A stretch of DNA of 64,000 bases from positions 1 to 64,000 of the forward strand of contig NZ_CP146612.1 in assembly GCF_037094495.1 (NCBI RefSeq), in the 5' to 3' direction. The notes beneath the pieces are model-generated. The model did no database searches and was not told where the DNA came from. It saw only the letters and a program-made list of their open reading frames with translations. Of this stretch, positions 4,386 to 21,309 are shown piece after piece. This DNA is from Dehalogenimonas sp. W (lineage in GTDB: Bacteria > Chloroflexota > Dehalococcoidia > Dehalococcoidales > Dehalococcoidaceae). The stretch's first letter is position 1. Each line of letters opens with the position of its first letter. Made by a program: the position numbers and the translations under genes.

Positions 4386-5903
4386 ATGTCTGAAACAAAA
4401 GTGATTATGATCCAGGGCACATCATCCAACGTGGGCAAAAGCGTGCTGGTGGCAGCGCTGTGCCGCATCTTCAAACAAGATGGCTACAAAGTGGCGCCGT
4501 TTAAGTCCCAGAACATGGCGCTGAACGCCTTTGTAACGCCGGAGGGCGGCGAAATAGGCCGGGCACAAGCCATGCAGGCAGAAGCAGCCGGAATAGCCCC
4601 CAGCATCCACATGAACCCGGTGCTGTTAAAACCGGAGGCTAATTCACGCTCTCAGATTATCCTGCACGGCAAAGTGTACAACAATACCTCCGCCGCCGCC
4701 TATTATCAGCATACGCAATTTTTACTGAGTAAAGTTAAAGAGTCTCTGGATTACCTCAAAGAACGTTACGACATTATCGTCATTGAGGGTGCTGGATCAC
4801 CGGCGGAGATTAACCTGAAGTCCCGCGAGATTGCCAATATGCGCATGGCGAAACTGGCCAATTCACCGGTGCTGCTGGCGGGTGATATTGACCGCGGCGG
4901 GGTGTATGCCTCATTCGTGGGAACGCTGGAAATACTGGACGAAGAAGAACGCAAGCTGGTCAAAGGTTTCCTGATCAACAAGTTCCGCGGCGATGTCACG
5001 TTAATCAAAGATGCCAACGATTACCTGGAAAACAAAACCGGCCGGCCAGTGCTGGGCGTGGTGCCCTATTTCCGCGACATATTGCTGGCGCAGGAAGACT
5101 CGGTGTACCTGGATGAACGGCAAAATAAAGATTCCACGGCTGATTTGGATGTCGCTATTGTCCGCATCCCGCGGATTTCCAACTATGATGATTTTGACGC
5201 TCTGGAAGAAGACGGAGCTAATATCCGTTATATTACCCGGCCGGATGAAATGGGCAGCCCGGACCTGATTATCATTCCCGGCTCCAAGACTACCGTGCCG
5301 GACCTTTTGGCTATCCGGCAGTCCGGAATTGCGGACGCTATTATTAAACGAGCCAAAGCCGGAACTCCGGTTTTCGGTGCCTGCGGCGGTTATCAAATGC
5401 TGGGCAAACTGATTCATGACCCGAATCATGTGGAATCAGAGCAGGACACCGTTGAAGGATTGGGCCTGATCAATGCTGAGACCACTTTTGCCGCCACCAA
5501 AGCGACTACCCAGGTTAAAGGGGTGATCACTGAGGACCGCGGACTGTTGGCGGGACTTAAAGGGGAGATTATCGGCGGCTACGAGATCCACATGGGCCGG
5601 ACGGTCAGCCCCGACCGCCCCTTCCGCATCACCGAAACTCAGGACGGCGGCGCGGATTATCCTGACGGCAGCGTCAACGAGGCGGGTACGGTTTTCGGCA
5701 GCTATATCCACGGTATCTTTCAGAGCCACGGCTTCCGGCGCGGTCTGATGAATAACCTGCGGCGGCGCAAAGGCTTGCCGGAGCGCGTCTATGACGCGCC
5801 GCTGGACAAAGAGAAGCACTATGACGCCCTGGCCGACCTGGTCAGACAGTCGGTGGACATGGACGCCATTTACCGCATCCTGAACGAGGGTATTAAAACT
5901 TGA
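4386..5903 (+). CDS. cobQ: Cobyric acid synthase
   Basis: A 505-residue ATP- and glutamine-dependent amidotransferase that amidates four carboxylates of adenosylcobyrinic acid a,c-diamide in corrinoid synthesis. The N-terminal synthetase domain begins with a modified P-loop, GTSSNVGKS (11-19). The C-terminal glutaminase-like domain carries the nucleophile Cys in GACGGYQMLG and the His in SYIHGIFQ. The length is typical. Corrinoid is the catalytic cofactor of reductive dehalogenases, which links this gene to rdhA at 19882. It overlaps the following thioesterase gene by 4 bases, implying translational coupling. The start lies 7 bases after a TGCTATAAT box. Confidence 0.96.
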   Translation: MSETKVIMIQGTSSNVGKSVLVAALCRIFKQDGYKVAPFKSQNMALNAFVTPEGGEIGRAQAMQAEAAGIAPSIHMNPVLLKPEANSRSQIILHGKVYNNTSAAAYYQHTQFLLSKVKESLDYLKERYDIIVIEGAGSPAEINLKSREIANMRMAKLANSPVLLAGDIDRGGVYASFVGTLEILDEEERKLVKGFLINKFRGDVTLIKDANDYLENKTGRPVLGVVPYFRDILLAQEDSVYLDERQNKDSTADLDVAIVRIPRISNYDDFDALEEDGANIRYITRPDEMGSPDLIIIPGSKTTVPDLLAIRQSGIADAIIKRAKAGTPVFGACGGYQMLGKLIHDPNHVESEQDTVEGLGLINAETTFAATKATTQVKGVITEDRGLLAGLKGEIIGGYEIHMGRTVSPDRPFRITETQDGGADYPDGSVNEAGTVFGSYIHGIFQSHGFRRGLMNNLRRRKGLPERVYDAPLDKEKHYDALADLVRQSVDMDAIYRILNEGIKT

Positions 5904-6298
5904 GCCAGGAGAACATTGAGAAGCTGCGTCAGGGGAGTCTGGTTGAGCCGGCCTGGCAATTGCTGGGCATCAAACTGGTTGAACTGGACGACGGATACGC
6001 CAAAGTCAGTTTGACGCTCAAGCCCGAATTTACGAACTTCGTGGGCAGTGTACACGGCGGAATTATTGTGACCCTGGCTGATTCAGCTTTCGGCTATGCC
6101 GTTAATGCATTGCATTACCCGACAGTGGCGGCCCAATTCAATACCCATTTCCTGAACCCGGCCTACCCGGACTCCGAGCTGACCGCAGAGTGCCGGGTGG
6201 TCAAAGCCGGCAAGCGGGCAATCATGGCCGAAATTAGCGTTGAAGACGCCACTGGCAAACTCATCGCCCGGGCGACGGGAACCGGCATACCGCTTTAA
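5900..6298 (+). CDS. PaaI-like hotdog-fold thioesterase
   Basis: A 132-residue single hotdog domain of the PaaI/YbgC-like acyl-CoA thioesterase group. The family motif is seen in NFVGSVHGGIIVTLADSAFG (about 44-63), where the HGG and the Asp of LADSA are the usual active-site positions, followed by a beta-sheet half. Translation starts at a TTG overlapping the cobQ stop as TTGA. Members hydrolyse CoA thioesters of aromatic or short acids in the cytosol. The substrate is unknown; the coupling to cobQ may only be shared transcription. Confidence 0.85.
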   Translation: MSQENIEKLRQGSLVEPAWQLLGIKLVELDDGYAKVSLTLKPEFTNFVGSVHGGIIVTLADSAFGYAVNALHYPTVAAQFNTHFLNPAYPDSELTAECRVVKAGKRAIMAEISVEDATGKLIARATGTGIPL

Positions 6299-6963: not shown

Positions 6964-7803
6964 TCAGTGTTTGGCGCTCTGGCCCAGATAGGCTGAGATA
7001 ACCTGGGGGTTGTTGCGGATTTCTTCCGGAGTGCCCTCAGCGATTTTCCGACCAAAATCCAGCACCACGATGCGATCCGCCAGATCCATGACCACGCCCA
7101 TATCATGTTCAATCAGGACGATGGTATTCAGGCCGTCACGGAGTACCGGCGTATCCGGATAACATTCACCCTGACCCTCAAAAATATCCACGATAAACCG
7201 GGCGATGTCTTCTTTTTCTTCGCTGTTCATGCCGGCCATCGGTTCGTCCAAAAGCAGCACTTTCGGTTCCAGCGCCAGGGCGCGGGCGAATTCAATGCGT
7301 TTGCGCATGCCGTAAGGCAACGAGGCGACTACATGATGGCGTACCGCCTCTATCTCCAGAAAATCAATGATATCTTCCACCACCCGGCGATGCTTTATTT
7401 CTTCGTTATGGGCCGGGCCGAAGTACAGCCCGCCGGTCAGCAGATTCTGTTTCATGAAGACATGGCGGGCGGCCATGGCATTCTCCAGCGTGGTTAAGCC
7501 GGAAAAAAGCTCAATATTCTGAAAGGTGCGCGCCAAACCCATTTTGGCGGCCTTGTCCGGGCGGATACCCCTGATATCCCGGCCTTCAAAAATAATCTCT
7601 CCTTTTTGCGGCTTATAGAAACCGTTAAGGCAATTCAACAGACAGGTCTTGCCGGCACCGTTAGGCCCGATAATAGCCAGAATTTCATTTTCCCGAATGT
7701 CCACGGAAACATCTTTTAAGGCGGTGATACCGCCGAAAGACAGGGTGATGTTACGCATGCTGACCTTAACCGGATTCTGTTGTTTGACAAGGGTGTCTGT
7801 CAT
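6964..7803 (-). CDS. livG: Branched-chain-type ABC transporter ATPase (LivG-like)
   Basis: An ATPase subunit of a LivFGHM-type importer. Walker A is GPNGAGKT, the H-loop is IEHDMG and Walker B is LLLDEPMAGMN. The long C-terminal extension and the ISAYLG ending are typical of LivG. The start is taken at ATG 7803, just past the stop of the CoA ligase gene; an upstream ATG at 7827 would overlap that gene by 23 bases. It is the last gene of a seven-gene minus-strand operon. The transported compound is inferred from context to be an organic or aromatic acid, not necessarily an amino acid. Confidence 0.9.
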   Translation of the reverse strand: MTDTLVKQQNPVKVSMRNITLSFGGITALKDVSVDIRENEILAIIGPNGAGKTCLLNCLNGFYKPQKGEIIFEGRDIRGIRPDKAAKMGLARTFQNIELFSGLTTLENAMAARHVFMKQNLLTGGLYFGPAHNEEIKHRRVVEDIIDFLEIEAVRHHVVASLPYGMRKRIEFARALALEPKVLLLDEPMAGMNSEEKEDIARFIVDIFEGQGECYPDTPVLRDGLNTIVLIEHDMGVVMDLADRIVVLDFGRKIAEGTPEEIRNNPQVISAYLGQSAKH

Positions 7804-7804
7804 G

Positions 7805-9067
7805 CTAATCCCATTTCCGTTCATCAATGACTATTTTAGCGTCGGCGGGAATAGTTCCCGTCGCCAGCAGTTCTAAATCATCCAGTTTGACCACGCAGGA
7901 GTTGTGGAACGCCCGGGCGATTTCAGGCTTAAGATTACCGGTCTCAGAAATCGCTGCCATTTCCAGCCGCAGGGTCAAATAGTCCCGATTGCCGTCACGC
8001 CTTACAACCAGTTGAAAACGACCGGCATCCGCAAAAGAACCTAACATTTCCTGCACCTGCTTGGGCACGACAAACATGCCGCGCACTTTAACAGCTTCAC
8101 CACTGCGGCCCAGCAGGCCGACCAGTTTGGGTGCGGTGCGCCCGCAGGCGCACTGGTCAACGATGAGTTTAGACAGGTCTCCGGTGCCGAAACGCAGCAA
8201 ACCCCAATGCGGGTTATGTAACGGCGTGACTACAACTTCGCCGATTTCGCCCGGCGGCAACTGCTGTCCGGTGGCCGGATCAACAATTTCAATGACGTAA
8301 TCATCCATCAGGTGCAGACCGGACTTGTCAGCACATTCATAGGCCAGCGCACCGCCCGGTTCGGTAACGGCATAGACCTGATAGGTATCAATACCGTAGT
8401 CAGCCTCAAGTTTCCGGCGGATTGACGGCGACAGCATTTCGCCGGTAAACCAGGCTTTTTTGATTTTCAGGTCCTTTTTAAAATCGCCGGTTTCCTGAAC
8501 CTTGTTAATCAGGCCCATCAAATAACTGGGCGTACCGACAAAGCCATTGCATTTAAGTTCCTTCATCGTCCTGATATGCACGTCGGTATTGCCGGCACCG
8601 GCGACGACAACCGTTGCGCCGCATTGCCGGAGCGCCTCACCAAACAATGTACCGGCAGGAGAGAGGTGATAGGTAAAGGTATTGATAACGATATCCCCTT
8701 TGCGGAAACCGGCCGCCCAGAAAGAACGGGCAAACCACTCAATTTTGGGTGAATGCAGAGGCTCATAAACCGGCCCCGGCGAAATAAAAATGCGTTCAAT
8801 ATCCTCTGGTCGGCCGATGTAATAACCGCCGTACGGCAAGTCATTTTGCTGCTGTTCAATTAAATCCGGCTTACGGGTGATGGGCAGTTTTACCAGATCG
8901 GCAGCGCATTTTATGGCCGCCGGTTTTACTCCGGCGGCTTTCATCATCTTGTGAACTGCCGGCGCGCCGCGGTAAGCCCGGGCCACCGCCTTTTTCAGCC
9001 GATTGTCCAGATATTCCCGCCGGTCCTCCGGCCTCATTGATTCCAGTTTATCGTAATGTTGTTTCAT
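7805..9067 (-). CDS. Phenylacetate-CoA ligase-family adenylate-forming enzyme
   Basis: A 420-residue protein of the PaaK branch of adenylate-forming ligases, which activate a carboxylic acid with ATP and transfer it to CoA. AVTEPGG, the FGTGDLS segment and the C-terminal GRSGEAVKVRGMFV hinge are characteristic. A CxCGR signature (CACGR) typical of PaaK-type ligases is present. The ATG at 9067 has AAGG six bases upstream; a TTG one codon earlier is possible. It sits between livF and livG, so an imported acid is probably its substrate. The exact acid is unknown. Confidence 0.85.
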   Translation of the reverse strand: MKQHYDKLESMRPEDRREYLDNRLKKAVARAYRGAPAVHKMMKAAGVKPAAIKCAADLVKLPITRKPDLIEQQQNDLPYGGYYIGRPEDIERIFISPGPVYEPLHSPKIEWFARSFWAAGFRKGDIVINTFTYHLSPAGTLFGEALRQCGATVVVAGAGNTDVHIRTMKELKCNGFVGTPSYLMGLINKVQETGDFKKDLKIKKAWFTGEMLSPSIRRKLEADYGIDTYQVYAVTEPGGALAYECADKSGLHLMDDYVIEIVDPATGQQLPPGEIGEVVVTPLHNPHWGLLRFGTGDLSKLIVDQCACGRTAPKLVGLLGRSGEAVKVRGMFVVPKQVQEMLGSFADAGRFQLVVRRDGNRDYLTLRLEMAAISETGNLKPEIARAFHNSCVVKLDDLELLATGTIPADAKIVIDERKWD

Positions 9068-9097
9068 CAAATACCTTGTGGTGATTTACCGCAATAA

Positions 9098-9889
9098 TTA
9101 TAACCAGCGTTTGCGCCGTTTGTAATGCTTGACGTCGCGATAGCTCTTTTTCTGGCCTACCGCGGACAGCCCCATATAAAATTCCTTGACGTCTTCATTG
9201 TTCTGCAGGAAATCCGCCGTGCCGTCCAAAACCACCCGGCCACTCTCCATGACGTAGCCGTAATGGGCAATGGACAGGGCAATACGGACATTCTGTTCTA
9301 CCAGCAGCACAGAAGTCTGCTGTTCTTCATTAAAACGTTTGATAATGGAGTAAATCTCGTCCACCATCATCGGCGCCAGACCGAGCGAAGGCTCATCCAG
9401 CATCATCAGTTTAGGCCGCGCCATCATCGCCCGACCGATAACTACCATCTGCTGTTCACCACCAGAGAGATAGCCGGCAGTATTGTTGCGCAAATTCTTC
9501 AGACGGGAAAAGTAATTGTAAACCATTTCCAGGTCATCTTTGACCGCCTGCCGGTTGGTACGGTTAAAGGCCCCGACCATAAGGTTCTCCTCAGCAGTCA
9601 GGTGTTCAAAAACCCGTCGGCCTTCCAGTGCCTGCACCAATCCGAGCCGTCCGATGTATTCCGGATTCTTCTTATCAATGCGTTCGCCGTCCCATTCAAT
9701 GTTACCGTCGGTGACTTCACCTTCTTCAATGTGCAACAGGCCGGAAATGGCTTTCAAAGTAGTGGTTTTGCCGGCGCCGTTAGCCCCCAGCAAGGTGACA
9801 ATCTGACCGTCCGGAACCGATAGCGAAACGCCGTGAAGAACCCGGATAACATTCAAGTAGGCGACTTCAATATTGTTCAGTTTAAGCAT
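9098..9889 (-). CDS. livF: Branched-chain-type ABC transporter ATPase (LivF-like)
   Basis: The second ATPase of the importer, 263 residues from ATG 9889. Walker A is GANGAGKTTT, the signature is YLSGGEQQM, Walker B is LMMLDEPSLGL and the H-loop is LLVEQNV. The Q-loop region VQALEGRRVFEHLT is characteristic of LivF. The C-terminus has a short basic tail (YKRRKR). A TTG at 9907 would add six residues. It lies 30 bases upstream of the CoA ligase gene, and a strong hairpin separates it from livK. Confidence 0.92.
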   Translation of the reverse strand: MLKLNNIEVAYLNVIRVLHGVSLSVPDGQIVTLLGANGAGKTTTLKAISGLLHIEEGEVTDGNIEWDGERIDKKNPEYIGRLGLVQALEGRRVFEHLTAEENLMVGAFNRTNRQAVKDDLEMVYNYFSRLKNLRNNTAGYLSGGEQQMVVIGRAMMARPKLMMLDEPSLGLAPMMVDEIYSIIKRFNEEQQTSVLLVEQNVRIALSIAHYGYVMESGRVVLDGTADFLQNNEDVKEFYMGLSAVGQKKSYRDVKHYKRRKRWL

Positions 9890-9917
9890 GATATCAGATA
9901 ATTCCAACCAGTTCGCC

Positions 9918-9957: not shown

Positions 9958-11241
9958 TTAACTAAATCCGTAGTCAATGTAAACGGCATTAATCCAATCG
10001 GTTTTCGGAATGATAGCTCCTCCGGCGACTTCAAAAACCCGCATGGCTTTGCTTAAACGGTTGTCACCGGGGGTATAGTTTACCGGGCCGTGCAGCCCCG
10101 AAACGTCGTAGTTAGACAGCATTTGAATACCATATTTTTCAACATTTTCAGGTGTCAGATTTGCGGCCCCTCCGGGAGTATTTTGAATAGCTGTTTCCAG
10201 AATTTTGGCAATCAATAAACCTTCTGCCCAGGCGGTGATATAGTCCATATTGTCTTTATATGCCGGGTGATACTGGTTAACGTATTCGGTCATTTTTGCC
10301 ATACCGGCAACATTATCGCCCCAGCTAACGGTGGGGAAGACACCCAATACGCCGTTAGCATTTGCGGCGCCAGCCAGCGCTATCATTTCGCTGGTAAAGC
10401 TTGCGTGCCCGCAGCCGATGGTAATTCCGGTCAGCCGTGGGTTAGCTTGATTAGCCTGAAGTGTTCTGATATTTTTGATGATCACAGAAGTAGGCGCAGG
10501 CGTACTGGAGATAAAAATGACATCAGGATTTTTAGACGCGATAGTAGTTAGAGCAGTAGTTTCATCCGACGTAGTGCCTGTATGGGTGGAAATATCCACA
10601 ATCTCTATGCCCAAATCGGCGGCTAATTTGTCCGCCGCATCTTTGGCACCGGAACCTGTGGGGTTATTGAGCAACATAAGTGCCATTTTCGGCTTACCAG
10701 TGCCCTGCCAGACATTTTCCATATAGTATTTGGCAAAAATCGCCCAACCATCACCATAATCAGGCATTTGAGCATAAATATGTTGGGCAGGTTGAGTGAT
10801 ATTCGGGGAGCTGAACACCGTAAAGCCCGGCAACCCGGCTTCATTGGCGATATTCATTACCGGAGTCATCATGGCCGAAGCCTGAGTGGTGAACATCAGG
10901 ACATTCTGAGAAATAAATTCATTAATTATTGTTGTGGCTCTAGAAGATTCGTAGGCATTATCTCTACTAACCACCTGAATCTCATGCCCCAAAACCCCGT
11001 CAAGTTCTTCGTTGACATATTTAATAGCGTCCAAAACCCCGGCTGCCATCGGCTGCCCTTTGGAGGCTGCGGCACCGGTTTGTGGATACATGATACCGAC
11101 TTTCAGCGGTTGCTTCACCGTTTCAGTCGGATCAGGGTCACCGTTACCATCGCCGCAACCGGCCGCTAATACCGGCAGGCCAACCAGGATCAAGATAAGA
11201 GAGATGACTGATAATTTTGATAACCAATTCTTGCTAATCAT
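9958..11241 (-). CDS. livK: Periplasmic-binding-protein-type lipoprotein (LivK-like)
   Basis: A 427-residue solute receptor of the type I periplasmic binding fold (Peripla_BP_6). The N-terminus is a lipoprotein signal peptide with lipobox VLAAGC and lipidated Cys29, followed by a Gly/Asp/Pro-rich linker; the ligand domain runs from about 45 to 400. The start has AAAGGGG upstream. Dehalococcoidia have a single membrane, so the protein would be tethered to the outer face of the cell. Family members bind branched amino acids, amides or aromatic acids. The neighbouring CoA ligases favour an acid. Confidence 0.92.
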   Translation of the reverse strand: MISKNWLSKLSVISLILILVGLPVLAAGCGDGNGDPDPTETVKQPLKVGIMYPQTGAAASKGQPMAAGVLDAIKYVNEELDGVLGHEIQVVSRDNAYESSRATTIINEFISQNVLMFTTQASAMMTPVMNIANEAGLPGFTVFSSPNITQPAQHIYAQMPDYGDGWAIFAKYYMENVWQGTGKPKMALMLLNNPTGSGAKDAADKLAADLGIEIVDISTHTGTTSDETTALTTIASKNPDVIFISSTPAPTSVIIKNIRTLQANQANPRLTGITIGCGHASFTSEMIALAGAANANGVLGVFPTVSWGDNVAGMAKMTEYVNQYHPAYKDNMDYITAWAEGLLIAKILETAIQNTPGGAANLTPENVEKYGIQMLSNYDVSGLHGPVNYTPGDNRLSKAMRVFEVAGGAIIPKTDWINAVYIDYGFS

Positions 11242-11315: not shown

Positions 11316-12371
11316 TTAGTGAGAAAACGGCCATAGCCGGTAGGAAGCTTTGAAGAGTTGCCAGCGGTGTGCCAGGCCTCTGGGTTCACGTACTAAAAAC
11401 ACGACGATTACCAGACCGAAAACCAAAGGCGCCAAACCGGCGGTAAAACCAGAAGGTGCATCCGGCAGGGCTGATTCCAATGCCGGCGATACCATGGTAA
11501 CTCCCTGCTGAAGCAGACGAATGGCGACCACCCCTAATACAGGACCCAGTGTGGTTCCCGCCCCGCCGATAATAATCATGCCGACATACAAGATTGAATC
11601 TGTGATGGAGAAATGTTCGGTACTGACGAACCCTATCCAGTGAGCTGTCAATGACCCGGCTATGCCGGCAAGAAAACAGCCGATAAAAAAGGCGATTAAC
11701 TTGTATCGGAACAGATTTATGCCCATAACTTCGGCAGCCAAATCATTATCCCGAACGGCTACAAACGCCCGGCCAAGCCGGGTTCTGGCTAAATTCTTGG
11801 CATAAAATACAACCATAACAGTCACCACAAAAATCAGGAAAAAAAGACTGGCCTGCGAACGGAAGGTAATGCCGAATATCTCTGCCCGCGGTACGCTGAG
11901 GCCGGTGAATCCCCCGGTAATCTCAAGATGACTGATAACCCACAAAATGATTATCTGCGCCGCAATGGTGGCAATGGCCAGATAAAAGCCTTTGACTCTA
12001 AGCGAGGCCACGCCGAAAATTACTCCGATTAAGCCGGCCATGATCCCGGCAGCCGGTAAGGCGATTAAAAAGGGCAAATCTAATTTGGCCGTCATTACTG
12101 CCGAAGTAAAGGCGCCGACGGCAATAAAACCAGCGTGACCCACTGATAGTTGTCCGCAGTAACCAGTCAAAATATTCAAACCGGTGGCCGCCACAATAGT
12201 GATACCAATCAGGTTGGCAACACCCAGCCAATATACTGATAAATACATTGGAGCAGTAAACAATACCAGCAACCCGATTATCAGCAGCGCCCAATGAGTC
12301 CTGGTGCGAAAAATAGCCATATCCTTGGCGTAGTTAAAGTTTCGCGTGCCGCAAGGCAGACCGGTACTCAT
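11316..12371 (-). CDS. livM: Branched-chain-type ABC transporter permease (LivM-like)
   Basis: A 351-residue integral membrane permease with about nine hydrophobic segments. Typical LivM features are LNILTGYCGQLSVGHAGFIAVGA near residue 65 and the cytoplasmic coupling segment RLGRAFVAVRDNDLAAEVMGINL. The first 20 residues are polar, and an alternative start lies at the ATG of MAIFRTR. It follows livH in the operon with a 54-base gap. Confidence 0.92.
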   Translation of the reverse strand: MSTGLPCGTRNFNYAKDMAIFRTRTHWALLIIGLLVLFTAPMYLSVYWLGVANLIGITIVAATGLNILTGYCGQLSVGHAGFIAVGAFTSAVMTAKLDLPFLIALPAAGIMAGLIGVIFGVASLRVKGFYLAIATIAAQIIILWVISHLEITGGFTGLSVPRAEIFGITFRSQASLFFLIFVVTVMVVFYAKNLARTRLGRAFVAVRDNDLAAEVMGINLFRYKLIAFFIGCFLAGIAGSLTAHWIGFVSTEHFSITDSILYVGMIIIGGAGTTLGPVLGVVAIRLLQQGVTMVSPALESALPDAPSGFTAGLAPLVFGLVIVVFLVREPRGLAHRWQLFKASYRLWPFSH

Positions 12372-12425: not shown

Positions 12426-13310
12426 CTATATCCTTTCAATACGAACCTGCCCGAACAAGCCGTAAGGTTTAATGAACAATACGATTATGATAATAATGAA
12501 GGGGATAACGTCTTTAATTCCCGGCCAGGTGTATTGGGTTAAATAGCCGCCGCCAAGATTCTCGGCTAAACCGATAATCGGCCCGGCGACCATGGCACCA
12601 AGGAAGGAGTCAAGCCCGCCGAGAATAACCACCGAAAATGACTTCAGGCCGGTTTCCACCAGACCATGGGTAATGCCGCCAATGCTGGACATCAATACGC
12701 CGCCGATTGCCGCCAAGGCACCGGCGAACATCCAGGAAACCGAGAAAATCTTAGTCACAGGGATGCCGCAGGCCCACACCGCCATCTGGTCATCAGCTGT
12801 AGCGCGCATGGCCACCCCCATTTTGTGATAACGGAAGAAAATGCTGACCAGGACGAATAATACCAGCGCAATACCCGCCGCCCACAGATATTCCTGGGAT
12901 ACAACAGCACCGAATATCTGCACCGGTTCATCCGGAATGAATTTCGGCATAGCCGCCGTGGATATAGGCCAGAACATAGAAACGAGACCTTCAAAAATAA
13001 AGGCCACACCCAGAGTTACAGTGATAAGCGAAAGTATCGGTTGCCCGATAAGGGGCCGCAGCACAACCCTTTCCAGTATCCACCCCATCGTGGCCGCAGC
13101 GGCAATAGTCACCGGCAGTCCAAGCCAGAACGGCATACCCGCTTGGTGCATCGTACCATAAGCAATCCAGGAAAATAGTAACACCATCTGCCCAAGGGCC
13201 AGATTGGCGACGCTGGATGATTTCCAGATAAAGGTAAAACCCAGCGCGATCAAAGAGTAGACCAGACCAACGGTAATACCGGTCAGTACGAATTGCATCA
13301 GGTCAGCCAT
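12426..13310 (-). CDS. livH: Branched-chain-type ABC transporter permease (LivH-like)
   Basis: A 294-residue membrane permease. LivH features include an N-terminal GLVYSLIALGFTFIWKSS segment, LALGQ, and a late GGLDSFLGAMVAGPIIGLAEN segment that matches the EAA-like coupling region. GGGAG lies ahead of the ATG, within the last codons of the acyl-CoA synthetase gene, whose stop is one base away; this indicates translational coupling. It pairs with the LivM-like permease to form the channel. Confidence 0.92.
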   Translation of the reverse strand: MADLMQFVLTGITVGLVYSLIALGFTFIWKSSSVANLALGQMVLLFSWIAYGTMHQAGMPFWLGLPVTIAAAATMGWILERVVLRPLIGQPILSLITVTLGVAFIFEGLVSMFWPISTAAMPKFIPDEPVQIFGAVVSQEYLWAAGIALVLFVLVSIFFRYHKMGVAMRATADDQMAVWACGIPVTKIFSVSWMFAGALAAIGGVLMSSIGGITHGLVETGLKSFSVVILGGLDSFLGAMVAGPIIGLAENLGGGYLTQYTWPGIKDVIPFIIIIIVLFIKPYGLFGQVRIERI

Positions 13311-13311
13311 A

Positions 13312-15237
13312 CTAAAGCTCCCTCACCTTGATTGATGTGGTCACGACACCCTTGCGGCCGTCACGATAGGTGACCGGCGCTTCAACTTTGACCTCCTGGT
13401 GTTCACCATACATGGCTTCTATAAGTTCCTTGTAGCGGTCATACATGGCGCCCCGGCGCAGCTTGCGGGTGCGGGTTAGCTCAGCTTCATCCGGATCAAA
13501 TTCCTTATGTAAAATAACAAACTTCCTGACTCTGGAATGTTCCGGCAGAAAGCCGTTGACTCTGGCAATATCTTTGGTAACGAGGTCGGCCACCTCTTTT
13601 TTCTGAGAAAGGTCAACGTAAGTGGTGAAGTTGAGGTGGTTATTCTGGGCCCATTTACTGACCATGGAAAAATCAATATTAATAATGGCCGAGACAAAAT
13701 CCTTGTCTTTGTCCCCCAGCACCATCGCGTCCTTAATATATGGTGAAAATCTGAGACGCCCCTCTATATACTGCGGGGCGAATTTGACCCCGCTCCTAAG
13801 TTCGCCCATATCTTTCAGACGATCCAAAAATATTATGTGCCCATCCGAATTGATATTGACGGCATCACCGGTGCGGAACCAGCGGCCCGGCGCAAAGCTC
13901 TCGGCGGTTTTGGCTTCGTCCTTGTAATAACCGGAGAACATACAGTCTGAACGGACAAACAGCTCCCCTTCAGCAGTCAGGCGGACCTCGGTGTTCAAAG
14001 CCGGTCTCCCGACGCTTTCAAAGGCAATCTCCCCACCGGAATGGGAGGAAATAAAACCGGCTTCAGTGCTGGCATAATTTTGCCGCAGTTCAATGCCGAT
14101 AGCATGAATGAGTTTAAAGGTATCCAGCGCAAGAACTGATGAACCGGTAACGGCACAACGAACGCGGGACAAGCCTAGTCGATCCTTAAGTGGCCGGAAC
14201 ATCAGACCGTCTGATATTTTACCCAGCACCTTCCACATCGCCCCGGGGTCCTTACCTGACAACCGGGCCTCCGCCAGACGATAACCTACTGGTAAAAATG
14301 TCCGATAAGCCAACCGTTTGAACGGATGAGCGTCCATCATCTTGACCTGAATGTCAGAAACCACGCCTTCCCACTGCCGGGGACCGTAGATAACGAAATG
14401 AGGTCCGATTTCCCGGGTATCAGCAGCAATTGTTTCCGGTTCCTCCGGGAAATTCAGCCGGGCACCGGATATTAAGTGAGGAATGGTGGCAAAGAAACTG
14501 TCGCCGACCCAAGCGGCGGGAAAGTTGGAGATGAGGTCACTCTTGTCATCCAACGGATACCGGGTAACAAATCCGGAAGCGGTGGCAATAAGCGCGCGGT
14601 GATTCAACATAGCGGCTTTTTGCTGACCGGTGGTTCCGGAGGTGTAGTAGATAAAGGCGGTGTCGGAAGGGTCAATCCGGTTGAGGTTTTCTTCAAACAT
14701 TTCCGGGTGCTCCCGTTCAAATGCTTTGCCCAGCTCAAGCACTTCGGGAAAACTAATCAGCAGCGGATCATCATAATTCTTCAGACCTTTGGGATCCCAA
14801 TAGACAACCTTTTTTAGCTGTGGGGTTTCAGCGTGAATTTCCAGGAACTTATCAGCTTGCTCCTGGTCATTAACAATGGCAAAAGAGGCACCGGAGTGAT
14901 TGACCACGAATTTAACTTCTTCAGGTACAGCATCAACATAAATGCCGGTAGGAATAGCCCCGGCGCCCTGTACCGCAAATTCAGCCCAAAACCATTCCGG
15001 CTCATTGTCGCCGATAAGGGCTACCACGTCAGCCCGCTTCAAACCCAGGGCGATCAACCCCAGCGAAAAATATTTTACTTTTTGGAAATATTGAAGCCAC
15101 GTATAGCGGTGCCAGACGCCAAAATCCTTATAACACATGGCGGTTTTATCCGGCCAGCGTTCGGCATTTCTTTTTATTAGTCCCGGTACCGTCTGTGGAT
15201 CCACCTGGTTGCTTCTACCCCCATAAACAGAAACCAC
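13312..15237 (-). CDS. Long-chain acyl-CoA synthetase-like AMP-binding enzyme
   Basis: A 641-residue adenylate-forming acyl-CoA ligase of the FadD/FAA type. The AMP-binding motif is YYTSGTTGQQKAAM (about 213-226), followed by the acetyl-group-type NYASTEAGF segment and the GRWFRTGD hinge region. It is the first gene of the liv operon, one base from livH, so its substrate is probably an imported acid. The GTG at 15237 lies inside a strong hairpin; an in-frame GTG at residue 12 is an alternative. Substrate chain length cannot be deduced. Confidence 0.88.
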   Translation of the reverse strand: MVSVYGGRSNQVDPQTVPGLIKRNAERWPDKTAMCYKDFGVWHRYTWLQYFQKVKYFSLGLIALGLKRADVVALIGDNEPEWFWAEFAVQGAGAIPTGIYVDAVPEEVKFVVNHSGASFAIVNDQEQADKFLEIHAETPQLKKVVYWDPKGLKNYDDPLLISFPEVLELGKAFEREHPEMFEENLNRIDPSDTAFIYYTSGTTGQQKAAMLNHRALIATASGFVTRYPLDDKSDLISNFPAAWVGDSFFATIPHLISGARLNFPEEPETIAADTREIGPHFVIYGPRQWEGVVSDIQVKMMDAHPFKRLAYRTFLPVGYRLAEARLSGKDPGAMWKVLGKISDGLMFRPLKDRLGLSRVRCAVTGSSVLALDTFKLIHAIGIELRQNYASTEAGFISSHSGGEIAFESVGRPALNTEVRLTAEGELFVRSDCMFSGYYKDEAKTAESFAPGRWFRTGDAVNINSDGHIIFLDRLKDMGELRSGVKFAPQYIEGRLRFSPYIKDAMVLGDKDKDFVSAIINIDFSMVSKWAQNNHLNFTTYVDLSQKKEVADLVTKDIARVNGFLPEHSRVRKFVILHKEFDPDEAELTRTRKLRRGAMYDRYKELIEAMYGEHQEVKVEAPVTYRDGRKGVVTTSIKVREL

Positions 15238-15337
15238 CCCCGCTTGGGAGGTGGTCTTAAATTCGCCTTCTAAGTATTTTAGTCTGTATTCGACCCGCCC
15301 AAGCGCACTCTGGTGCGCTTGGTAAAGGCGAATTTAA
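15232..15337 (-). promoter_or_regulatory. Structured leader, candidate attenuator of the liv operon
   Basis: In transcription order there is a 13-bp perfect outer stem (15325-15337 with 15257-15269) enclosing a 10-bp perfect hairpin (15313-15322 with 15299-15308). A third hairpin follows (15232-15254, about 9 bp) and is followed by a T-rich TTCTGTTT. The third hairpin overlaps the GTG start. The 3' arm of the inner hairpin contains CGCTTGGG, which can instead pair with CCCAAGCG in the third hairpin, so two exclusive folds are possible. This is the arrangement of a terminator/antiterminator switch. I do not recognise a known riboswitch class. A small MITE-like insertion is the main alternative. 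Confidence 0.55.
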
Positions 15338-15371
15338 AGCTGTGCCTGTCAAAAAATACCATAGCGCGGTA

Positions 15372-15400
15372 AGAGTAACATACGCCATAATACCTGTCAA
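15372..15400 (-). promoter_or_regulatory. Candidate promoter of the liv operon
   Basis: On the minus strand, TTGACA (15395-15400) is followed after 17 bases by TACTCT (15372-15377). The predicted start near 15365 leaves a leader of about 128 bases that holds the nested stem-loops. The -10 box is a weak match. Confidence 0.4.
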
Positions 15401-19881: not shown

Positions 19882-21309
19882 ATGGGAAAGTATCATCCAA
19901 CGGTCAGCCGCCGGGATTTCATGAAAGGAATAGGTTTGGCCGGTGCCGGACTCGGCGTTGCCGCCGCCGCATCCCCGGTTTTCAGAGACCTTGACGAAAT
20001 GGCCGCCGCCAGCGAGATCTACACCAAGAAACCCTGGTGGATTAAAACCCGGGATCATCTTGATATGACCACCGAAGTGGATTGGAATCAGGTGAAACGT
20101 TACAGCGAAGACGACACACTGCGGGGCAGCCGGGCAAATGATTATAAGCTGGATTTATACCCTCAAACCGAATGGGACCGCCGCGGTACCGAGAAATCTG
20201 AAAAGGAAAACCAATGGCTTCAGGAAGGCCGTGCCGGCTGGTCTTTAAAAGATTTTGCCTTTTCCGGCAATGTCGGTGCCAACCAGTCTACCACCCAGAG
20301 CTTCCTGGGCCCACAGAAATCAACCACCCCCGAAGGCCGCGGCGTCGCTAAATGGCAGGGTACCAAGGAAGAAGCCGCGGCTATGCTGCGGACATTCCTG
20401 CGGTTTGTCGGTGCCATGAATGTTGGTTTCGTAGAGCTGGAAGAGGCAAATACCAAGAAATTCATCTACGATTATGAGCAGCGTAAAAAAGTGCGTAACA
20501 TCTGGGTTGACGATGATAAGCCGTCTATAAACGTGGTATCCAGTTCATTTTCTGAATATCGCATACCCAACAGTTTCAAACATGCTATTGTAATCATCAA
20601 TCAGGAATCAATGAAGTCATTCAAAGTGAACCCGACCCAGTTGATGGCTCAGATCCGCTACCAGCGTAACGTCAACATTCAGGCCGCGACCATGGAGTTT
20701 ATCCGCAGCCTGGGTTACCAGGCCGTCGGCCAGTTCGCCACCAATGCCATCGGCATCGGCCCGGCGCTGGCAACCGTTGCCGGCCTTGGTGAAATGGGCC
20801 GGGTCAATCGCCTGATGACTCCGGAACACGGTCCGGTGGTCGGCGTCTTCACCATGCTAACCAACCTCCCGTTACCCGCTGACAATCCAATTGACGCCGG
20901 CTATCTCAACTTCTGCCGCACCTGTATGAAGTGCGCCGATGCCTGCGGTGAAGGTGCCTTGTCATTTGAAAAGGACCCCTATTGGGAGACCATCGGCCCC
21001 TGGAATAACCCCGGTCACAAAACGTGGTTTGAAGATTCAGTCAAATGCACCGCCTATCGCGCGTTGCCTGATGCCTGTACTTCAGGCAAATGTCTGGCGG
21101 TCTGCACCTTCTCCAAGGACCATGTGGCTGCGGTACACGAAGCGGTTCAGATGACCGTTGCCAATACCGGCTTGTTTAACGGATTCTTCAAGAATATGGA
21201 CGATATCTTCTACGGGGAAGGACTGCACGATCCGGCCAAATTCTGGGAAGCCGAACATCCTATTTACGGCATTGATACCACCATCCATGCACCTGATACT
21301 CACGCCTAG
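19882..21309 (+). CDS. rdhA: Reductive dehalogenase catalytic subunit, no rdhB adjacent
   Basis: A 475-residue corrinoid/Fe-S enzyme that removes halogen from organohalides as the terminal step of respiration. The N-terminal Tat signal has SRRDFMKG (9-16) and a hydrophobic Ala/Gly-rich stretch to about 35. The C-terminal half carries two Fe-S motifs: C345-x2-C348-x2-C351-x3-C355-G, and C389-x9-C399-x4-C404-x3-C408-T. Pro is absent after both last cysteines, and the x4 spacing is unusual. GAAGGAG precedes the ATG by 7 bases. No rdhB anchor gene follows; a terminator hairpin comes 40 bases after the stop. Substrate cannot be predicted. Confidence 0.93.
   Translation: MGKYHPTVSRRDFMKGIGLAGAGLGVAAAASPVFRDLDEMAAASEIYTKKPWWIKTRDHLDMTTEVDWNQVKRYSEDDTLRGSRANDYKLDLYPQTEWDRRGTEKSEKENQWLQEGRAGWSLKDFAFSGNVGANQSTTQSFLGPQKSTTPEGRGVAKWQGTKEEAAAMLRTFLRFVGAMNVGFVELEEANTKKFIYDYEQRKKVRNIWVDDDKPSINVVSSSFSEYRIPNSFKHAIVIINQESMKSFKVNPTQLMAQIRYQRNVNIQAATMEFIRSLGYQAVGQFATNAIGIGPALATVAGLGEMGRVNRLMTPEHGPVVGVFTMLTNLPLPADNPIDAGYLNFCRTCMKCADACGEGALSFEKDPYWETIGPWNNPGHKTWFEDSVKCTAYRALPDACTSGKCLAVCTFSKDHVAAVHEAVQMTVANTGLFNGFFKNMDDIFYGEGLHDPAKFWEAEHPIYGIDTTIHAPDTHA

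Follow-up and report, generated by a model that had tools for sequence, protein, structure and literature searches.

The leader that precedes an acyl-CoA synthetase gene in Dehalogenimonas sp. W is very probably a ribosome-mediated transcription attenuator with phenylalanine supply as its signal. The window, i.e. the whole stretch analysed, comprises the first 64,000 nucleotides of contig NZ_CP146612.1, and all the RNA elements described here lie on its minus strand and point into the operon 15204-6964 (Table 1), whose gene starts and membership are predictions. An earlier note on this DNA had described a 13-bp outer stem, an inner 10-bp hairpin (P1), a terminal hairpin with a T-rich tract and an alternative pairing between the two hairpins, all of which were found where it had placed them. 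A leader open reading frame (ORF) at 15362-15279, running through the inner hairpin, was missing from that description, and the strand that is read is the minus strand. That the ribosome stalls, which amino acid is sensed and in which direction the switch responds are all inferred from the sequence.

Table 1. Leader elements and operon genes in the window of Dehalogenimonas sp. W.
Feature	Position	Strand	Remarks
-35 hexamer TTGACA of leader promoter	15395..15400	minus	sequence
-10 hexamer TACTCT	15372..15377	minus	17 nt from -35
Leader peptide ORF	15279..15362	minus	27 codons, ATG 15362 to TAA 15279; MVFFDRHSFKFAFTKRTRVRLGGSNTD, then stop
Outer stem	15257-15269 / 15325-15337	minus	13 bp, perfect; pairs over Phe codons
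Control Phe codon TTC	15330..15332	minus	Phe/Tyr in all 141 leaders
Control Phe codon TTT	15324..15326	minus	directly 5' of P1; invariant TTT, never TTC
Hairpin P1 (1:2 pairing)	15299-15308 / 15313-15322	minus	10 bp; CCAAGCGCAC-CAGA-GTGCGCTTGG
Antiterminator strand 2 (CGCTTGGGCGG)	15295..15305	minus	P1 3' arm and beyond; pairs with strand 3 (11 nt, 10 paired)
Antiterminator strand 3 (CCTCCCAAGCG)	15241..15251	minus	terminator 5' arm and loop
Intrinsic terminator (3:4 pairing)	15223..15257	minus	GACCACCTCCCAAGCGGGGGTGGT and U-rich tail TTTCTGTTTAT
Putative Shine-Dalgarno GGGGG	15218..15222	minus	predicted from sequence; 3' of terminator; 13 nt to GTG 15204, a long distance
Acyl-CoA synthetase (AMP-binding), first regulated gene	13312..15204	minus	Pfam PF00501, PF23562
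LivH-like ABC permease	12426..13310	minus	PF02653; NCBIfam LivH below cut-off
LivM-like ABC permease	11316..12371	minus	PF02653
ABC substrate-binding lipoprotein (Peripla_BP_6)	9958..11241	minus	PF13458; weak NCBIfam match to branched-chain amino-acid binding protein
LivF-like ATPase	9098..9907	minus	NCBIfam comparison
PaaK-like CoA ligase (phenylacetate--CoA ligase family)	7805..9070	minus	best NCBIfam PaaK, 206 and 174 bits, below cut-offs
LivG-like ATPase, last gene of cluster	6964..7827	minus	NCBIfam comparison

Folding of the minus-strand leader gave -59.7 kcal/mol against a shuffle mean of -39.5 (z -5.1), better than all 200 dinucleotide shuffles. The terminal hairpin, at about 15233-15256 and followed by TTTCTGTTT on the minus strand, is called an intrinsic terminator on that strand by a terminator search. 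The outer stem, which the earlier note had stressed in its title, is strong (-12.7 kcal/mol or lower) in only four of the seven Dehalogenimonas-group leaders and weak in three, and shows no excess over shuffles in the 134 leaders outside this group. It was rejected as the core of the element and is a genus-specific accessory pairing, which could perhaps, and this is speculation, keep the Phe codons sequestered in the absence of a ribosome.

A sigma-70 promoter (TTGACA-17-TACTCT) spans 15400-15372, just before the leader ORF. The arrangement TTGACA-N16-19-TANNNT scores at least 9 in 115 of 140 leaders, versus 9.4% of shuffles, and the predicted leader promoters are strong matches to the consensus. 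Because the -10 hexamer ends 9 nt before the leader ATG, the 5' untranslated region, counted from the presumed start site, is predicted to be only a few nucleotides long (near-leaderless). In Dehalococcoidaceae leaders the ATG lies 5-10 nt past the -10 hexamer, while elsewhere the distance is often 20-30 nt, and the leader ORF of Dehalococcoidaceae is probably translated from near-leaderless RNA. In 136 of 141 leaders an ATG-started frame stays open as far as the Phe codon (20 and 6 for the other two frames), and P1 lies inside the ORF, directly after the codons TTC-GCC-TTT-ACC. At the other end of the leader, the longest ORF for the acyl-CoA synthetase begins at GTG 15237, within the terminator, and the proteins of relatives start with similar "(D/E)PQT-PGLIKRN" residues at the position matching GTG 15204, which is the likely start. 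The hairpin that the earlier note had located at the start codon is real, but the start codon is probably another one.

In the mechanism that we propose, RNA polymerase would transcribe the short leader ORF and a ribosome would initiate at the near-leaderless ATG. With ample Phe-tRNA, the ribosome would get past TTC-GCC-TTT, after which P1 would form, or the ribosome, once at the stop codon, would cover the 3' arm of P1; the terminator hairpin would then fold and transcription would end ahead of the acyl-CoA synthetase gene. With scarce Phe-tRNA, the ribosome would stall at the Phe codons and hide the 5' arm of P1, and the freed strand 2 would capture strand 3, the terminator would come too late to form, and the acyl-CoA synthetase-liv-PaaK-like operon would be transcribed. 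The stall was simulated by letting a ribosome on TTT hide the 5' arm of P1 and folding the remaining RNA up to the terminator loop: in the window leader, antiterminator pairs rose from 1.7 (P1 free) to 10.5 before the terminator 3' arm was made, and with the simulated ribosome at the stop codon the terminator formed. In equilibrium folding of the full-length RNA the terminator is favoured even with a stalled ribosome, so that read-through must be kinetic, i.e. co-transcriptional. Switching of this kinetic, co-transcriptional sort is accepted for classical attenuators.

The antiterminator was evaluated by comparing the duplex that each leader forms with its own terminator arm and those that it forms with the arms of other leaders. 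Cognate duplexes averaged -18.6 kcal/mol versus -16.7 for non-cognate ones in 141 leaders (z -9.6); since relatedness inflates counts, the test was rerun on 86 dissimilar representatives, with z -7.6. The signal was also significant within the acyl-CoA synthetase and DAHP-synthase sets taken separately, and the controls (upstream segment, reversed strand) were null. All 141 leaders examined have a hairpin with a T-rich tail at the corresponding position, and the terminator/antiterminator switch postulated in the earlier note is conserved across the order, with arms that co-vary. The core positions of P1 show compensatory changes in the same 141 leaders (G-C to C-G or A-U; C-G to U-A). The P1 loop has either 3 or 4 nt and the frame after P1 differs accordingly (RTRCAW vs RTRVRL) while P1 persists, and in some leaders a stop codon lies within it. 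This shift of frame around a constant P1 indicates an RNA-level constraint on P1, with codon-level constraint limited to the codons that precede it, and coding conservation was rejected on these grounds as the sole cause of P1 conservation.

In a BLAST search with the leader, 6 of the 7 genus members and more than 20 further genomes of the order gave matches, always at a core of about 41 nt; a pattern search with one N fewer in the loop uncovered the relatives whose loops have 3 nt and not 4. The 49 leaders aligned have in common TTY-NNN-TTT, P1 and, after a variable spacer, the terminator. With a covariance model, the family was located in 121 of 156 genomes of the order Dehalococcoidales and in 4 of the approximately 330-340 genomes searched in the rest of the class; in a 400-genome sample of the phylum, matches came only from members of the order. 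All pattern matches in named records were in records titled Dehalococcoidales, Dehalococcoidia, Dehalococcoides or Chloroflexi/Chloroflexota. These figures are lower bounds, given the strict filters used in the searches, and the leaders counted are not independent, as many of the sequences come from MAGs and are related to one another. Some of the loci on which the model was trained had been found with the P1/TTT pattern, so that the constancy of TTT and of the P1 sequence is in part a product of that selection; despite this pattern-based seeding, genus DAHP-synthase leaders with a quite different P1 (GGTGCCC/GGGCAC) were still recovered. The earlier note had looked to homologous leaders with covarying stems for support of its switch, and this distribution, along with the compensatory changes in P1, provides it.

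The leader is also tied to its gene. Genomes at least 85% complete contain 39 close orthologs of the acyl-CoA synthetase that are near full length, and 37 of them have the leader within 500 bp upstream; it precedes none of six distant paralogs. For the two close orthologs without a leader (G012 and G134), its absence was confirmed by reading the upstream regions and held even with the model filters off, and one genus member without the acyl-CoA synthetase gene also lacks the leader. One acyl-CoA synthetase ortholog of the genus (L204, G006:C5:125651-127558) carries a single in-frame TAG in the aligned stretch. Strong intergenic inverted repeats such as these could also belong to a mobile repeat (a MITE, as the earlier note had considered) or to an ordinary unregulated terminator, an explanation that we regard as extremely improbable: BLAST against the 1.77-Mb single-contig genome returns one match, the leader itself, which is therefore no MITE; each genome has it in one orthologous place, tied to the gene; and the alternative arms co-vary.

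A second member of the family in the same genome (L090; C1:1115463-1115599, minus strand, outside the window) encodes the peptide MVAQSFYAYYYFTWCPKGTTGRFGVSA and precedes an operon that includes DAHP synthase (first gene), aroB, aroA, pheA (CM-PDT-ACT) and tyrA. A third model match in this genome, at C1:331597 (20.9 bits), was discarded, as it lies in other sequence with no matching leader. Among 143 leaders, the next gene encodes an acyl-CoA synthetase in 73, a DAHP synthase in 42, a HisC-like aminotransferase in 9 and a CaiB-type CoA-transferase in 7; it is pheS in 3 and some other gene in 9. The control codons next to the first hairpin specify Phe or Tyr in all leaders, F-x-F or Y-x-F preceding P1 in every one of them: Phe-x-Phe in acyl-CoA synthetase leaders, Tyr-rich stretches before DAHP synthase (for example MLVNIASYGFYYAYFTFPWRTRCAWEDLT) and the aminotransferase (MLIYTTAHYYYYYYYYAFTGRTGTLGG), and Phe before pheS (MPGRVVSQNGYFSFIFAFTVRT). 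In the last 12 codons of the DAHP-synthase leaders Tyr makes up 31% and Phe 9%, versus 3.7% and 4.5% in the coding background, while the acyl-CoA synthetase leaders have two invariant Phe codons, with Phe elsewhere at 6.5% versus a background of 4.5%. Published modelling indicates that fewer control codons result in lower sensitivity (PMC1183508), and with only two invariant Phe codons and little Phe excess the acyl-CoA synthetase leaders would, on that modelling, be less sensitive. At the first control codon of the pair, TTC is present in 104 of 141 leaders, TTT in 16, TAC in 11 and TAT in 10. The last Phe codon is always TTT, though the Phe codon two before is mostly TTC, and the codon after TTT varies; TTT is also invariant in L002-L021, found by BLAST without selection for it. 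Codon choice tuned for sensitivity or an RNA constraint may account for this invariant TTT.

The presence of only two invariant Phe codons, and the conservation of K-F-[VIA]-F-T-x-R-T at the residue level in acyl-CoA synthetase leaders, would also fit an arrest peptide, in which the nascent KF-x-FT-x-RT stalls the ribosome on a ligand (aryl-CoA, free Phe or an organic acid) instead of on uncharged tRNA. We consider this quite unlikely, as the residues next to the Phe/Tyr codons are not constant (TTT is followed by Thr, Ser, Pro or Ala), the ORF ends within P1 in some leaders and relatives differ in the frame that follows P1, the runs of Tyr codons in sister leaders are the mark of codon-based sensing, and the overlap of P1 with the KF-x-FT-x-RT codons explains part of the conservation. 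The earlier note had in turn suggested a new cis-regulatory RNA, possibly responsive to organic acids. An apparently new and conserved switch family it is, but a ligand-binding riboswitch with two exclusive folds is highly improbable even with a terminator and an antiterminator that are real and conserved and no Rfam class at threshold: the conserved core lies within a Phe/Tyr-codon ORF, beyond the hairpin there is no conserved unpaired aptamer core but a variable spacer and a genus-specific outer stem, and the downstream genes, among them those for DAHP synthase, PheS and the aminotransferase behind sister leaders, share aromatic amino-acid metabolism and have leaders with matching codons.

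Several members of the family bear on the annotation of the genes behind them. Aminotransferases annotated as HisC stand behind Tyr/Phe leaders in nine loci (L022, L139, L145, L148, L161, L169, L170, L184 and L185), with up to eight consecutive Tyr codons, and these enzymes are probably aromatic and not histidinol-phosphate aminotransferases. In L116 and L118 (family f32), a Phe leader is followed by CaiB CoA-transferase genes, after which come a gene for a 2-hydroxyacyl-CoA-dehydratase-type subunit and other conserved genes; genes of the IorA/IorB type are close by, and these loci could represent a second route that links aryl acids and Phe. Leaders of the same kind also precede other target genes (L072, L127, L141, L163, L143, L176, L180, L196 and L200), namely octopine-dehydrogenase-type, HMGL-like aldolase, metallo-beta-lactamase-fold, molybdopterin oxidoreductase and AAA ATPase genes, another AMP-binding ligase and a BPD_transp_2 permease, all of which we count as members of the regulon.

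With regard to the function of the operon in the window, neither the ligases nor the transporter meet an NCBIfam curated cut-off that fixes a substrate. A PaaI-like thioesterase gene is present past the cluster end, at 5900-6298, and farther away in the window (19882-21309) there is a gene for the catalytic subunit of a reductive dehalogenase (PF13486), whose N-terminus is twin-arginine-like. In a genome of the same family (G010), probably a Dehalococcoides, the genes for IorA/IorB (indolepyruvate oxidoreductase) are divergent and adjoin the leader, and in another of the order (G031) an IorB gene lies about 2 kb upstream of it; in Dehalogenimonas sp. W, IorB is located elsewhere, away from the leader. 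Aryl acids are precursors of aromatic amino acids through indolepyruvate oxidoreductase in Methanococcus maripaludis, according to work cited in PMC4162585. We tentatively propose that the operon may serve phenylalanine supply, comprising aryl acid uptake, CoA activation, reductive carboxylation and transamination; speculatively, an imported aryl acid would be converted to its CoA ester and carboxylated through IorAB to yield phenylalanine. For the aromatic-amino-acid regulon of Dehalococcoidales this would mean, as a possibility somewhat short of probable, that the "branched-chain" ABC transporter and the two acyl-CoA ligases (with IorAB next door in some genomes) constitute a second, salvage route to Phe from imported aryl acids, turned on at Phe-tRNA shortage. 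A catabolic reading of such genes also exists, since a marine Dehalococcoidia genome has been interpreted as degrading phenylalanine via phenylacetate (PMC4959651). An operon that takes up or breaks down branched-chain amino acids or fatty acids, and for which Phe would be only a general starvation signal, is an alternative to this function and not to the attenuator, and we judge it unlikely: the ABC genes are annotated as Liv-like, the ligase is nearest to long-chain acyl-CoA ligases and sequence has no power to tell the substrate, but the control codons are for Phe and not Leu, Ile or Val, and relatives have IorAB, a PaaK-like ligase and a PaaI-like thioesterase as neighbours. On the phenylalanine-supply reading, a cluster that would be annotated as branched-chain amino-acid transport plus fatty-acid activation is predicted to serve phenylalanine supply. 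More generally, the leader codons provide a readable regulon in organohalide-respiring, largely uncultured bacteria, in which they mark genes for phenylalanine and tyrosine.

Rfam at threshold identifies only a tRNA in the whole window and no riboswitch class, in agreement with the earlier note, and the T-box model gives no match even at E values up to 10; a known riboswitch or T-box was rejected for lack of an Rfam match. A survey of leader genes from 2016 had too small a sample of Chloroflexi for a judgement (PMC4833913). The open-access literature searched describes attenuation in neither Dehalococcoides nor Dehalogenimonas and contains no Chloroflexota leader of this kind; an earlier prediction may exist in the broad 2010 attenuation survey. 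The mechanism is classical. The family itself, its phylum and the target, acyl-CoA synthetase-liv, seem not to have been described before.

The new leaders share with the trp/his/leu-type attenuators of Proteobacteria and Actinobacteria the control codons, the 1:2 hairpin, the 2:3 antiterminator and the 3:4 terminator (PMC1183508), but would respond to another amino acid and have no sequence relation to them. The uORF/attenuator of Corynebacterium ilvBNC (ilvB-II motif), by the account in PMC10272879, offers a parallel in that a structured RNA was recognised first and its regulatory uORF later, although amino acids, phylum and sequence are different. The nearest Rfam model is Phe_leader (RF01859), with 21.3 bits for the window leader, 33.8 for the DAHP-synthase leader of the same genome and 26.4 for the pheS leader, all below its gathering threshold of 55 bits; over its entire length, the window leader is aligned by Rfam with all 125 positions of the model. 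As in the enterobacterial pheA/pheST-type Phe_leader, there is a Phe-rich peptide, the 1:2, 2:3 and 3:4 pairings and a terminal U-tailed hairpin, and pheS and Phe biosynthesis are also part of the new regulon. The new leader would work like Phe_leader and is not classed as a member of it: it belongs to a family in another phylum, with a near-leaderless ORF in Dehalococcoidaceae, and unlike Phe_leader this family also precedes acyl-CoA synthetase-liv and CoA-transferase operons.
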